Below, piece after piece: positions 37,925 to 41,903 of a stretch of 64,000 bases of DNA (the stretch's first letter is position 1; the number at the start of each line of letters is the position of its first letter). The stretch spans positions 868,001 to 932,000 of the forward strand of contig NZ_FOIS01000001.1 of the NCBI RefSeq assembly GCF_900110455.1, read 5' to 3'. The position numbers and the translations under genes were made by a program. The DNA comes from Natrinema salifodinae. GTDB lineage: Archaea > Halobacteriota > Halobacteria > Halobacteriales > Natrialbaceae. The notes beneath the pieces were generated by a model that worked only from the letters and a program-made list of their open reading frames with translations, was not told where the DNA came from and did no database searches.

Positions 37925-39103
37925 ATGCTTTCGATCGCGCTTGCCGGAAAGCCGAACGCCGGCAAGTCCACCTTCTACACGGCGGCGACGATGGCGGACG
38001 TGGACGTCGCCAACTACCCCTTCACCACGATCGACGCCAACCGAGGGGTGAGCTACGTCCGGACCGAGTGCCCCTGCCTCGAGCGCGACGAGCGGTGCAA
38101 CGCCGATAACTGCGAGGACGGCAAGCGCTACGTCCCGATCGAACTACTCGACGTGGCGGGCCTGGTCCCCGGCGCCCACGAGGGGAAGGGCCTGGGCAAC
38201 CAGTTCCTCGACGAACTGACGAACGCCGATGTGATCGTCAACGTCGTCGACGCCTCCGGCGGGACCAACGAGAAGGGCGAACCCGTCGACATCGGCGCAC
38301 ACGACCCGCTCGAGGATATCGACTTCATCGAGGAGGAAATGGACCTCTGGCTGGCGGGCATCGTCGAGCGCAACTGGGAGTCCGTCGAGCGCAAATCCCG
38401 CTCGCCCGACTTCGACATCGACGACGCCCTGGCGGAGATGCTCTCGGGCTTCGGCGCCTCGCCGAAACAGATCGCGACCGTCCTGCGGGAACTCGACTAC
38501 CCCGAGGACCCGATCCAGTGGGAGGACGACCACCGCGAGGAACTGGCGCGCCTGGTCCGTGAGCGCACGAAGCCGATCGTCGTCGCGGCGAACAAGATCG
38601 ACGTCGCGCCCGAGGAGAACGTCGAGCGGCTGCTCGACCTCGATAAGCCCGTGATCCCCACCACCGCGGAGGGCGAACTCGCGCTCCGCCGGGCCGCGGA
38701 CAACGGCCTGGTAGAGTACGATCCGGGCGACGAGACGATCGAGATCGGCGACGACGTCAGCGACGCCCAGCGGGAAGCGCTGGAAGGCCTGGCGGACACG
38801 ATGGCCGAGTGGAACGGAACGGGCGTCCAGTCGGCGCTCGACTACGCAGTCTACGACCTGCTGGACCACCTCACCGCCTACCCGGTCGAGGACGCCTCGA
38901 AGTGGTCCGACGGGAGCGGAAACATCCTGCCCGACGCCTTCCTGTTATCCGAGGGGTCGACGCCGGTCGACCTGGCCTACGCCGTCCACTCCGACATCGG
39001 CGACGGCTACCTCCACGCGGTCGACGCCAAGTCGAACCGAGAGGTCGGCGAGGGCTACGAGTTAGAAGAGGGGGACGTAATCAAGATCGTGAGCACTAAC
39101 TGA
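37925..39103 (+). CDS. ychF: Redox-regulated ATPase/GTPase YchF (Obg-related)
   Basis: 392 residues. P-loop GKPNAGKS (8-15), switch and G3 region (LLDVAGLVPGAHEGKGLGNQFL), and NKID in VVAANKIDV. The C-terminal TGS domain (about 310-392) ends in EGDVIKIVSTN, the usual end of the family. It binds ribosomes and nucleotides and is nearly universal and single-copy. The final eight codons recur three times downstream, suggesting this 3' end is the target of repeated insertions; the present tail is intact. Confidence 0.95.
   Translation: MLSIALAGKPNAGKSTFYTAATMADVDVANYPFTTIDANRGVSYVRTECPCLERDERCNADNCEDGKRYVPIELLDVAGLVPGAHEGKGLGNQFLDELTNADVIVNVVDASGGTNEKGEPVDIGAHDPLEDIDFIEEEMDLWLAGIVERNWESVERKSRSPDFDIDDALAEMLSGFGASPKQIATVLRELDYPEDPIQWEDDHREELARLVRERTKPIVVAANKIDVAPEENVERLLDLDKPVIPTTAEGELALRRAADNGLVEYDPGDETIEIGDDVSDAQREALEGLADTMAEWNGTGVQSALDYAVYDLLDHLTAYPVEDASKWSDGSGNILPDAFLLSEGSTPVDLAYAVHSDIGDGYLHAVDAKSNREVGEGYELEEGDVIKIVSTN
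39077..39103 (+). repeat. ychF 3'-end core, copy 0 (the gene's own terminus)
   Basis: Nine codons, VIKIVSTN plus TGA. Followed 42 bases after the stop by GCGACCAGTACAGGG (39146-39160), which matches blocks after copies 1 and 3. Unlike the other copies, it is preceded by ychF coding sequence, not by the GTTGTGTACACTGT block. Confidence 0.85.
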
Positions 39104-39229
39104 CAATAAGATAACAAACCGAATACTGTGTTTTAGGCGGGTGTGGCGACCAGTACAGGGCGTACAAGCATCGTCCATTCCAATTCCTCACACAGAAAGC
39201 TTATATGAATATGTCGCAGATATGATTAT

Positions 39230-39706
39230 ATGATTTCTCGTCGCGCTACCCTCCGAGCTACGTTCCCTCTACTCGCCGGTACGCTTTCTGGATGTACTGC
39301 CTCGGCTTTTTCCAACAGGCATCCTCATCTCAACTGTATCGAACTAATTAATTTAGACACCGAATCGAATACTGTTCACCTGCGTGTTGAATACGAGAAT
39401 GGAGAAACATTCTCTGATTCCTATACTATTGATGGTCGTGAAGAAGACGGTCGGGTTAAACAACGATGGATTCCACAGGAGTTGCCCGATGAGACGGGAC
39501 AATTCCGTGTCCATTTTCGGATGGACACGCATTCAGAGTGGGTAACAATCGAATCTGAGGAGGAGTTGGGCGAGTATGCTATCCAGATAGCGTATCGGAT
39601 TGATTCAGATGGCCACGGCATACCCTTTTGGGAAATGCGTGATGCTGATCACGACGAGCGAGGTTGTAGCGAATCGCTCGCAAACCCAATTGAAATTGAC
39701 GGGTGA
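39230..39706 (+). CDS. Tat lipoprotein, cargo of module 1
   Basis: 158 residues. MISRRATLRATFPLLAGTLSGC gives a twin-arginine-like signal and lipobox (Cys22), so it is probably lipid-anchored outside the cell. The remainder is a beta-rich domain with no recognised family (LRVEYENGETFSD, FRVHFRMDTHSEWVT). Base composition is visibly AT-richer than ychF, and it is the only gene between ychF core copies 0 and 1. TTATATGA around 39201-39208, about 25 bases before the ATG, suggests a leaderless transcript. Confidence 0.75.
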   Translation: MISRRATLRATFPLLAGTLSGCTASAFSNRHPHLNCIELINLDTESNTVHLRVEYENGETFSDSYTIDGREEDGRVKQRWIPQELPDETGQFRVHFRMDTHSEWVTIESEEELGEYAIQIAYRIDSDGHGIPFWEMRDADHDERGCSESLANPIEIDG

Positions 39707-39763
39707 ACCAATGTTCATATTGAATGTGGTTTCCGTCGTTCTCCCCCCATAGCCGGTCAGTTC

Positions 39764-39869
39764 GCATCTGCAGTGATCGCGAAGTTCGAAGCAGATCAAA
39801 ATGGAGTTTATATGTTGTGTACACTGTGTGTACTCAGAAATGGTAATCAAGATCGTGAGTACCAACTGA
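39764..39869 (+). repeat. 106-bp module end, copy 1 (with ychF core)
   Basis: Matches 40438-40543 over 106 bases without gaps and with 16 differences by hand count. It contains the block GTTGTGTACACTGT...ACTCAG (39814-39837), five spacer bases, and the core 39843-39869 encoding VIKIVSTN-stop. A GCGATCAGTACGGGG block follows at 39917-39931. Confidence 0.85.
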
Positions 39870-39980
39870 CAAAAACCTAATAAATATGGCCTCCGCTTTT
39901 TATTTAGTTGGCCCCAGCGATCAGTACGGGGATTCACGTATCACTCGGTACAGAGTAGATACTGAGCGCCGATAGCTTGT

Positions 39981-40337
39981 TTAGGCAGTCCGAGATTTCT
40001 GATATCGGGACGTAGAGAGATGGAGAGCGGCAAATGTACTCAACAGAATAACTGCACTCAACAGGACAGTGATCGACATTTCATTGCTGACCGTAGTGAA
40101 TTCAACCACAATCCGTGGGACAAGGACACCTGCAATAATAACCGCACCGACACCGAGGACACCAGAAGGTAACCATGCCTCGCGAGGTACGAATATGACT
40201 GTTCCAATAAGAACCCCTCCGAGAACAATCGCGGGAAGAGGATCAGAGACACCCATCAACATATAGATGATCAGCGCCAGACTGCTGGCGACGGTGACCA
40301 CTATGTTGAACTCGATCTCTTGAACCGTGTTTCTCAT
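39981..40337 (-). CDS. Four-span membrane protein, cargo of module 2
   Basis: 118 residues from the chosen ATG, mostly hydrophobic, with about four spans (near 10-27, 30-50, 52-75, 85-110) and short polar ends. No family recognised. Base composition is AT-rich against the neighbourhood. It is the only gene between ychF core copies 1 and 2 and is transcribed opposite to ychF. A longer start 27 codons upstream is possible but adds a non-matching polar tail. Confidence 0.65.
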   Translation of the reverse strand: MRNTVQEIEFNIVVTVASSLALIIYMLMGVSDPLPAIVLGGVLIGTVIFVPREAWLPSGVLGVGAVIIAGVLVPRIVVEFTTVSNEMSITVLLSAVILLSTFAALHLSTSRYQKSRTA

Positions 40338-40437
40338 GCATAATACCCCATCTTGATTTGATAAAATTCTATGAGTTATAAGCGCTATTGACAAGATGGT
40401 GTTCGTCTCCGATCCCAATTGTGTATCTACAGCATTT

Positions 40438-40543
40438 GCATCTGTAGTGATCGCGAAAGTCAGGTCGGGTCAAAATGGAGTTTATACGTTGTGTACACTG
40501 TGTGGACTCAGTATTGGTAATCAAGATCGTCAGCACGAACTGA
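40438..40543 (+). repeat. 106-bp module end, copy 2 (with ychF core)
   Basis: Gap-free match to 39764-39869. Contains GTTGTGTACACTGT...ACTCAG at 40488-40511, five spacer bases, and core 40517-40543 encoding VIKIVSTN-stop, with three third-position changes against copy 1. No GATCAGTACGG block follows; the small partner gene of the Doc toxin ends 22 bases later. Confidence 0.85.
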
Positions 40544-40564
40544 TAAAATTAGAGTCGAAGTGCG

Positions 40565-40705
40565 TTACTCGTTTTCGAGCGCGTCGTAGATATCTCGATT
40601 CGAGTCTCGGTCAGCCGCCGCCACTCGCTGGACGAGTTCTCGTCGGATATCGTCCATCACTTCATCGAGCGGGGAACCGGACTCCGAACCTTCCTCGGTC
40701 GCCAT
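40565..40705 (-). CDS. Small partner protein of Doc, probable antitoxin
   Basis: 46 acidic residues, largely helical (LDEVMDDIRRELVQRVAAADRD). It lies 25 bases downstream of the Doc-type toxin gene on the same strand and is the only neighbour that could neutralise it. The order is toxin first, opposite to classic phd-doc. No DNA-binding motif is evident. The short start (ATG at 40705) leaves the normal gap after the toxin stop. Antitoxin role is inferred from position. Confidence 0.6.
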   Translation of the reverse strand: MATEEGSESGSPLDEVMDDIRRELVQRVAAADRDSNRDIYDALENE

Positions 40706-40730
40706 ATTTGGGGTATCGTCCCGACCGTGG

Positions 40731-41219
40731 TTAACCGTTCGGGTTAGATGAGTCACCGGTTAGTTCATCCAGTCCGTACTGGATGAGGTCGTCTCGCCAC
40801 TGTTCGATCTCGCCTGCAAGGTCGATTTCTTCAGTGTGAGATCGAAGATATTCGAGAGTTTCCGTTTCGTCGACGGTCGCCTGATCGGTGCCGAACTGCT
40901 TGAGGATCGTCCTGATTTCGTCGTCGTACGTGAACCGATATCCGTTGAGAAAGTAGAACACGACCGTTGTGTTGAGCGCAGTGCGCTTGTTTGCGTCGAC
41001 GAACGGATGGTTCGCCACCAATAACCGGAGGAGGTGAAACGCCTTCTCGTGAATCGTCTCGGGTGTCGTTCCGAAACTTCCGTTCTCGATGTAGTTCAGG
41101 GCAAACTCGATATCGCCACGATTCTGGACGCCAGCGTGCGTGTCGGAATACTCTGATACGATGTCGTCGTGGATGGCGAGTACGTCGTCGACTGACGGGT
41201 ACCAGAGTGAGTCTGCCAT
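40731..41219 (-). CDS. doc: Fic/Doc family death-on-curing toxin
   Basis: 162 residues. The Fic-fold catalytic motif is HPFVDANKR (71-79), close to the Doc form HxFxD/NxNKR. Doc toxins phosphorylate elongation factor Tu and stop translation; this protein could do the same to aEF1A, which is inference. Paired with the small gene downstream, and together they form the cargo of the module between core copies 2 and 3. Toxin-antitoxin pairs are common in mobile elements, where they help retention. Confidence 0.85.
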   Translation of the reverse strand: MADSLWYPSVDDVLAIHDDIVSEYSDTHAGVQNRGDIEFALNYIENGSFGTTPETIHEKAFHLLRLLVANHPFVDANKRTALNTTVVFYFLNGYRFTYDDEIRTILKQFGTDQATVDETETLEYLRSHTEEIDLAGEIEQWRDDLIQYGLDELTGDSSNPNG

Positions 41220-41324
41220 TCGATCCGCCGTTTAGGCCGCATCCGGGTAATCCTTGCTATCAACTTCGGCCAGCCAATACGTGACCTCTCTACGATCCCA
41301 TCGTTAATCGGACTGTATTTATTC

Positions 41325-41380
41325 GTTGTGTACACTGTCTGCACTCAGATGTACTGATCAAGATCGTGAGTACTAACTAA
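41325..41380 (+). repeat. Module end, copy 3 (block plus ychF core)
   Basis: GTTGTGTACACTGT...ACTCAG (41325-41348), five spacer bases, then core 41354-41380 encoding LIKIVSTN with TAA stop. A GAGATCAGTACGGAGG block follows at 41435-41450. The wider 106-bp similarity of copies 1 and 2 does not extend upstream of this copy beyond roughly 41318. Confidence 0.85.
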
Positions 41381-41479
41381 CGATATCGGGACACACCGAG
41401 ACCGCCGTTTTCATCTGCAGTCCAGTTGGACGCAGAGATCAGTACGGAGGCGTATTCTTCGGAGAGGACGTGTTTCGCC

Positions 41480-41875
41480 TCACTCTAGTGGCTGGACGTA
41501 ATCGACCTGTTTCGGTCGGAAGTTCGTATCGCGGTGGAACCGGCGGGCGTCCTCGTTCCGCCACTCGCAGGAGACTTTGAGGTGGTCGTAACCTTGATCG
41601 CGAGCCAGCTCCGTTACGCGCTCGATGACTCTCGAGCCGTGACCTCGGTTCCGGTGGTCTTCGTCGATAGCGAGGTTTACGATGCGGAGATACCGAGAGT
41701 ACTGTCGGGAGGAGTGGTGACCCTCGCGGAGCGTAACGAAGCCGATTGTCTCGTCCTCGTGAACGACGAGGTAGTCGGTGATCGCATCGTCGTCGAGATG
41801 GGCGTGAAAGCCGTCGTCGGGCACTTCGTCGACATCCGCGTAAACGAGTTCGTTCAGTTCGTCGTACACTTCCAT
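41480..41875 (-). CDS. GNAT family N-acetyltransferase
   Basis: 131 residues forming one GNAT domain. The acetyl-CoA loop is NRGHGSRVIERVTELARDQG, preceded by the usual beta strand (LRIVNLAIDEDHR). Substrate unknown. It is the first gene after the module stack and starts 28 bases from a divergent small gene, so it may belong to the original chromosome or be a further acquired gene. Confidence 0.87.
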   Translation of the reverse strand: MEVYDELNELVYADVDEVPDDGFHAHLDDDAITDYLVVHEDETIGFVTLREGHHSSRQYSRYLRIVNLAIDEDHRNRGHGSRVIERVTELARDQGYDHLKVSCEWRNEDARRFHRDTNFRPKQVDYVQPLE

Positions 41876-41903
41876 CGCTTCCGCGAGGGAATACCAGCGG
41901 TCA

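Follow-up and report, generated by a model that had tools for sequence, protein, structure and literature searches.

The principle by which an integrating element restores the 3′ end of its target gene while the old end is displaced is already known from islands at tRNA genes and ssrA and from the SCC/ECC elements at the 3′ end of rlmH. The SCC/ECC elements are tens of kb long and have ccrAB serine recombinases (PMC6222049). In the Dehalococcoides ssrA islands the target is the tmRNA, and 16 islands have an integration module that includes a serine recombinase (PMC3146451). CIMEs are defined as decayed ICEs/IMEs, and tandem accretion of integrase-less units is already known under this name (PMC5704250). 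Here we describe an array of short units located behind ychF in a haloarchaeon of the family Natrialbaceae. The stretch of DNA analysed, 64,000 nucleotides long, is referred to as the window. As judged from comparisons of nucleotide sequences, the units are very probably small integrase-free mobile cassettes recombined site-specifically into the 3′ end of ychF, and the short repeats between them (cores) would be fossil functional endings of this gene. No description of ychF cassette arrays was found in the open literature searched.

The protein encoded by ychF in the window, where the gene was found to be the insertion target, has the C-terminus GDVIKIVSTN, and the gene ends with the codons GTA ATC AAG ATC GTG AGC ACT AAC TGA. 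The window's genome has a single close copy of ychF. A second YchF-like GTPase (48% identity) is encoded in the same genome (G000:C3:282298-283521, locus L002); its end is ATCGAGGTCGTCACGACGAACTGA, and no cassettes were recognised at this locus. The core is 24 nt long and occurs in four copies on the + strand (Table 1), all of them encoding IKIVSTN followed by a stop, with differences limited to synonymous codons or stop codons. This confirmed, at all four positions, the main observation of an earlier reading made from the sequence alone (the sequence-only reading). Its codon table was also right (Val GTG/GTG/GTC/GTG, Ser AGC/AGT/AGC/AGT, Thr ACT/ACC/ACG/ACT, and stop TGA/TGA/TGA/TAA in cores 0-3), and the leading codons are GTA/GTA/GTA/CTG (Val/Leu). 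The span to which it was assigned, 39843-41380, takes in the three displaced cores only; the native copy including its leading codon is found upstream, at 39077-39103. No further core copies were found in the window, 100 shuffles gave 0 matches, and these four are the only perfect cores in the whole genome. A conserved arm of about 40 bp (TTTATNNGTTGTGTACACTGTSTGNACTCAG), absent from the sequence-only reading, precedes each displaced core, and it marks them as attachment sites rather than random repeats. The GTACTCA motif of the arm (39830-39836) is found inverted as TGAGTAC in core 1 (39856-39862). We infer from the sequence that the crossover takes place inside the 11-bp ATCAAGATCGT (39080-39090 at core 0), in which case 39091-39103 would be the element-borne tail.

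Table 1. Coordinates of ychF, the cores and the cassettes in the window.
Feature	Coordinates	Strand	Basis
ychF, Obg-like GTPase with TGS domain, insertion target	37925..39103	+	Pfam YGR210-like_G4, MMR_HSR1, TGS
Core 0, working 3′ end of ychF	39080..39103	+	24-nt core match
Cassette 1, 742 bp between cores	39104..39845	+	cassette comparison across ychF loci
Gene of cassette 1 without Pfam match, 158 aa, N-terminus like that of a lipoprotein	39230..39706	+	
Right arm of cassette 1 (GTTGTGTACACTGTGTGTACTCAG...)	39807..39845	+	model R1 77.7 bits
Core 1, putative displaced former ychF tail, IKIVSTN-stop	39846..39869	+	24-nt core match
Cassette 2, 650 bp between cores	39870..40519	+	cassette comparison across ychF loci
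Gene of cassette 2 without Pfam match, product of 145 aa, hydrophobic (membrane-like)	39981..40418	-	
Right arm of cassette 2	40481..40519	+	model R1 74.4 bits
Core 2, putative displaced former ychF tail, GTCAGCACGAACTGA	40520..40543	+	24-nt core match
Cassette 3, 813 bp between cores, Doc-type toxin-antitoxin	40544..41356	+	cassette comparison across ychF loci
46-aa ORF, antitoxin position upstream of Doc gene	40565..40705	-	read from sequence
Fic/Doc-family toxin-like gene, 162 aa	40731..41219	-	PF02661 E=1.3e-10
Right arm of cassette 3	41318..41356	+	model R1 70.1 bits
Core 3, putative displaced former ychF tail, stop TAA	41357..41380	+	24-nt core match
Probable fourth cassette, right arm and core lost, right limit uncertain	41381..41900	+	left module, repeat D5, ends ...GATCAGTACGG
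GNAT acetyltransferase gene	41480-41875	-	Pfam GNAT

The three complete cassettes of the window are arranged in tandem and their cargo is unrelated, each with a single gene or a toxin-antitoxin pair. No recombinase genes were found in them. Cassette 3 is of the commonest type, the Doc-type toxin-antitoxin cassette, of which 16 copies were found in 11 genera, and its 46-aa ORF is also present in the cassette of another locus (L138). The segment that follows core 3 is a probable fourth cassette minus its right end. Genes related to its GNAT gene were found 59-129 bp behind ychF at seven other loci, and GNAT is therefore common cassette cargo. Copies of the cassette 1 cargo (39151-39770) with 77-89% identity are present at places other than ychF in at least 7 other Natrialbaceae genomes. 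These copies (L254 4001-4604, L267-L272) have near-identical sharp boundaries, CAGTACAG on the left and GGTCAGTTCGCA on the right, an indication that this cargo moves between attachment systems.

The distribution of these structures was analysed in 125 genomes of the family. The core was detected by pattern search in 76 of them, many of which have it in tandem, two to four times; a control pattern had 0 matches in every genome. The sample of loci consisted of 120 ychF loci taken by coordinates, to which the window and three loci of organisms not in the family were added. The arm profile was built without the core, so that displaced cores were found by the arm alone; it produced 49 matches downstream of ychF and 0 on either the reverse complement or the reversed sequence. 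When an arm-core model of 68 positions was run over the 125 whole genomes, full-length sites were found at ychF only, once one inversion and one contig break had been resolved. In genome G066, the array at ychF is divided, its right part being located 182 kb off, in opposite orientation, before the usual ubiA (L260 ~9659; C1:1543658), probably as the result of an inversion with its breakpoint within the first cassette. In genome G039, the array is split over two contigs (L181, L261), the second of which opens with an IS200-type transposase-like reading. The cargo of the 49 cassettes fell into 23 clusters. Cassettes are mostly single-gene and range from 167 bp to 2 kb (median 650 bp), with a GC content of 49% versus 65% for ychF. 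Two strains of Natrinema thermotolerans, A29 and DSM 11552, have different cassettes and tails at ychF. In strain A29, ychF and a Doc cassette are found in record CP031304.1 (L253 6071-8100), which is labelled as a plasmid and may be a mislabelled chromosome.

The end of ychF was readable at 123 loci, 90 with TN followed by the stop (mostly VSTN) and 33 of the TA type (STAS, STA, STAK or similar). Arms were present at 34 of the 90 TN loci versus none of the 33 TA loci (Fisher p = 5e-6). Beyond the family, the ending of ychF is almost always STAK, STAS or STAGP, and the TN exceptions are loci matching the core, including that of Natronocalculus (L114), which has its own two-cassette array. Because arms are found at TN loci only and endings outside the family are of the TA type, TA is most likely the ancestral ychF ending and TN the mark of integration. 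The change from TA to TN altered the YchF end and made it one residue shorter. Two findings weigh against the integration reading. At the threshold used, 56 of the 90 TN genomes had no recognisable arm, and loss, decay or inheritance must explain them. Most multi-cassette arrays have a TN rather than a TAS core at their outer end, which means that the first tail to be displaced was lost there, decayed or was exchanged. Together, these two findings indicate that loss and decay are common. The TN tails also carry foreign codon use: GC3 in TN genomes is 0.45 for the last Ser codon, 0.55 for the last Thr codon and 0.67 for the last Asn codon, versus 0.91-0.95 for these amino acids in the body of the gene, and the tail serine is AGY in 77 of 89 TN tails, while TCG and TCC dominate gene bodies and TA tails.

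At four TN loci the ancestral ending, IKIVSTAS followed by a stop, is still present behind the arm, on the side of the insertion away from ychF. The displaced tails are ATCAAGATCGTTTCGACGGCGTCGTGA in L211, ATCAAGATCGTTTCGACAGCCTCGTGA in L238 and ACCAAGATCGTCAGTACCGCCTCGTGA in L221, and that of L191, displaced likewise, has a 1-nt deletion. Comparison of L191 with its empty sister L193 showed 173 of 187 nt identical before the crossover and 201 of 226 from the displaced core onward, with a cassette of about 800 bp inserted between the matching flanks. This pair and the displaced TAS tails are direct evidence that the old tail was pushed downstream. The arrays could also have grown by tandem duplication and homologous recombination between arm-core repeats, with no site-specific recombinase involved. 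The 64-bp arm-core repeats could support exchange between occupied loci, and two neighbouring sites in L210 look duplicated. However, the insertions into empty TAS sites are precise and have only 11-14 bp in common with the cassette, and the cargo of neighbouring cassettes is unrelated. Furthermore, on a tree of the ychF body the TA/TN character needs 17 changes, at least 13 of which are forced by well supported branches and count as independent conversions. We consider growth by homologous recombination unlikely. Tail haplotypes needed about 74 changes over the 90 tips of the same tree.

If the crossover takes place within ATCAAGATCGT, the next 13 nt should travel with the cassette on the right and not with the preceding right arm. 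The linkage test took intact cores and cross-genus pairs only. Among pairs with similar left ends, 25% had identical 13-nt tails versus 3.8% of the dissimilar pairs (0 of 1000 shuffles), while similar right arms showed no linkage (7.7% versus 8.3%; 570 of 1000 shuffles). The rare tail with a TCT serine adjoins the same left end in five genera. Moreover, core 2 of the window (the third core) and the first ~17 nt beyond it are identical to the functional ychF end of a relative (G010, locus L208). The expectation that cores would match native ychF ends was thus borne out for core 2, although the "donor species" of the sequence-only reading is better understood as a donor cassette.

Of the displaced cores, 49 in total, 28 encode exactly IKIVSTN and stop. 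Missense changes, between one and three per core, were found in 8, another 3 are TAS tails, and the remaining 10, which include the L191 TAS tail, are broken. Displaced cores therefore decay, as expected after coding stops, which is a qualification to the sequence-only reading. Compared with the native consensus, codon differences in the alignable displaced cores are synonymous in 59 cases and non-synonymous in 11, where random single changes would give 26% synonymous. Non-synonymous changes in these arm-found cores had therefore not accumulated as often as synonymous ones, in agreement with the sequence-only reading, and the synonymous variation is an inheritance from the time when the cores were functional ends. 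A second alternative is that the cores are kept only by recombinase binding, the native core being the only one that ever coded and the synonymous pattern being a coincidence. Near-invariance of the arm and of the 11-bp ATCAAGATCGT shows that a binding constraint is real there, and the TGAGTAC of the tail pairs with the arm as an inverted repeat. Nonetheless, variation falls on third codon positions, which account for 43 of the 48 differences that intact distal cores show, identical tails serve as functional endings elsewhere, and the displaced TAS tails are wholly without TN sequence. Maintenance by binding only is already disfavoured by these data and we regard it as very unlikely. The mechanism proposed in the sequence-only reading, that an element-borne tail replaces the end of the gene and pushes the old one downstream, was supported by six tests: the displaced TAS tails of the four loci, the L191/L193 pair, the association of TN with arms, the linkage of the tail to the right-hand cassette, the foreign codon use, and the disagreement with the gene tree.

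Another alternative is a reversible host device, in which excision and reinsertion of cassettes would switch the YchF C-terminus between TAS and TN or between codon variants. The shortened YchF end and the existence of variation within species are compatible with such a device, but most tail differences are synonymous, the distribution looks like horizontal acquisition, and the data have no sign of within-strain switching, all of which makes it highly improbable. The probability that the cores are target-site duplications made by a transposase favouring the ychF end is close to nil: although direct repeats are found on both sides of each insertion, such duplications start as identical copies of host sequence, whereas here TN on the gene side systematically faces TAS on the far side, which already contradicts this origin, the near-side tail follows the cassette and not the host, and no transposase was seen in the cassettes.

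The reading that we favour, integration of cassettes into the 3′ end of ychF, can be described by the following pathway. A circular cassette would bear an attachment site composed of a ychF-like core preceded by the ~40-bp arm. A recombinase provided in trans (the circular form, the enzyme and its class are all predicted) would exchange strands within the 11-bp ATCAAGATCGT common to the cassette and the gene. As a result, ychF would gain the cassette's version of the last codons, Ser-Thr-Asn-stop, and its previous ending would come to lie beyond the cassette, after the cassette's arm. With each further insertion the cassettes would stack up, presumably with the newest adjoining ychF, and selection through ychF function would keep the element-borne tails in frame and coding. 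Displaced cores that are fossil functional endings would for that reason differ from one another at synonymous positions. Of these steps, the sequence comparisons show the replacement and displacement of tails and the linkage of each tail to its cassette; they also show that insertions were many and independent, that cassettes are diverse and that a linked tyrosine integrase is absent. Since the TGAGTAC partner of the arm's inverted pair is mostly absent from TAS tails, it may be speculated that a first insertion improves the site for later ones.

Weighing against the favoured reading, a homologue search of 80 loci found no tyrosine recombinase encoded within 10 kb downstream of ychF. In the search for an integrase-bearing parent, the arm and core patterns had 0 matches in viral contigs and 0 in phages, and, likewise against this reading, neither an autonomous parent nor a circular form was found in these two collections. 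The only hit among plasmids was the ychF locus of the plasmid-labelled record CP031304.1. No large parent, at ychF or elsewhere, was found by the arm/core searches, including the arm-core profile of the 125 genomes, and Rfam gave nothing above threshold. Large serine recombinases (PF07508) are encoded in 7 of the 125 family genomes, none of which is the window's genome and two of which are TA-tailed. Their presence did not match that of the arrays, and no site was found at three of their loci. They were found at L279, L280, L281 and in four other genomes; in six of these Natrialbaceae genomes two such genes face opposite ways, for proteins of about 320-380 and 400-530 aa, and in the seventh there is a single one. 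A plasmid repeat that shares the end motif of cassette 1 was traced through five plasmids and rejected: it is dispersed between genes, and no neighbouring annotation there names a site-specific recombinase. A ~35-bp repeat (GGTCAGTTCGCACACGTAGTTACCGGTCAGTACAG) lies between short one- or two-gene units in the Natronorubrum aibiense plasmid NZ_CP045489 (L254 3466-4922) and was matched in 21 Natrialbaceae plasmid records. These units are possibly a second cassette system.

The synonymous codons and the displaced TAS tails demonstrate stepwise how mobile elements can rewrite the end of a conserved chromosomal gene and remain in frame. The arrays are a hot spot at which haloarchaea acquire single genes, among them genes for toxin-antitoxin pairs, GNAT and HIT proteins and membrane proteins, and most Natrialbaceae have it in the same fixed place. 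As a tentative proposal, for which we see somewhat less than even chances, ychF could be a lineage-wide gene-capture platform of haloarchaea, integron-like, with the last codons of this conserved GTPase gene as entry site, standardised single-gene cassettes, an undescribed recombinase acting in trans, and insertions that edit the C-terminus from TAS/TAK to TN and possibly better the next landing site. The missing recombinase is a concrete and findable target, and it could serve as a compact genome-insertion tool for archaea.

Integrons, including the archaeal integrons (PMC9668308), resemble the ychF arrays in their tandem short single-gene units, each with a recombination site, and the 23 cargo clusters described above show that their content is diverse. 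They differ in that no IntI, no attI-intI platform and no tyrosine recombinase near ychF were found, in that entry takes place at the 3′ end of a host gene, and in that each ychF cassette carries a piece of the target gene. A reading of the junctions as attC sites was not supported by single-strand folding; the bottom-strand fold z-scores were -1.93, 0.51 and -2.64, and no structure was common to the three junctions. Because no IntI and no consistent attC-like fold were found, the ychF array is not an integron. The likeness to CIMEs (PMC5704250) consists in the lack of integration or transfer genes, the retention of flanking att sites, and tandem accretion at one target. In agreement, the cassettes are short and mostly single-gene, no tyrosine-integrase-like ORF was found downstream of ychF in the 80 loci, and both attL and attR are retained, with a core on both sides and the arm on the right side. 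In contrast to CIMEs, no large parent of the ychF cassettes was seen, and they look like standard minimal units with an arm common to many genera. The Dehalococcoides ssrA islands (PMC3146451) are also in tandem, each closed by a copy of the target's 3′ end, and have a conserved motif just upstream of the displaced repeats. As in ssrA and tRNA islands, the end of ychF is supplied by the element and the old end is found at the distal junction, according to the TAS tails and the linkage test. The ychF cassettes, however, are without an integration module, and their target is protein-coding, so that the tail exchange is visible at the level of codons. Like the ychF cassettes, SCC/ECC elements (PMC6222049) have a conserved protein-coding gene as target and enter it at its 3′ end; also shared are att repeats of about 50 bp, an inverted repeat in attR (GTACTCA/TGAGTAC in the ychF arm-core) and variable cargo. 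The ychF units differ from them in being only 0.2-2 kb long and in having mostly a single gene, and also in the absence of a linked tyrosine recombinase, their archaeal host and a target other than rlmH. What distinguishes the ychF arrays from the systems already described is thus their size (167 bp to 2 kb), the single gene that most units have, arms common to many genera, ychF as the target, an archaeal host, and a record of the exchanges at the level of codons.
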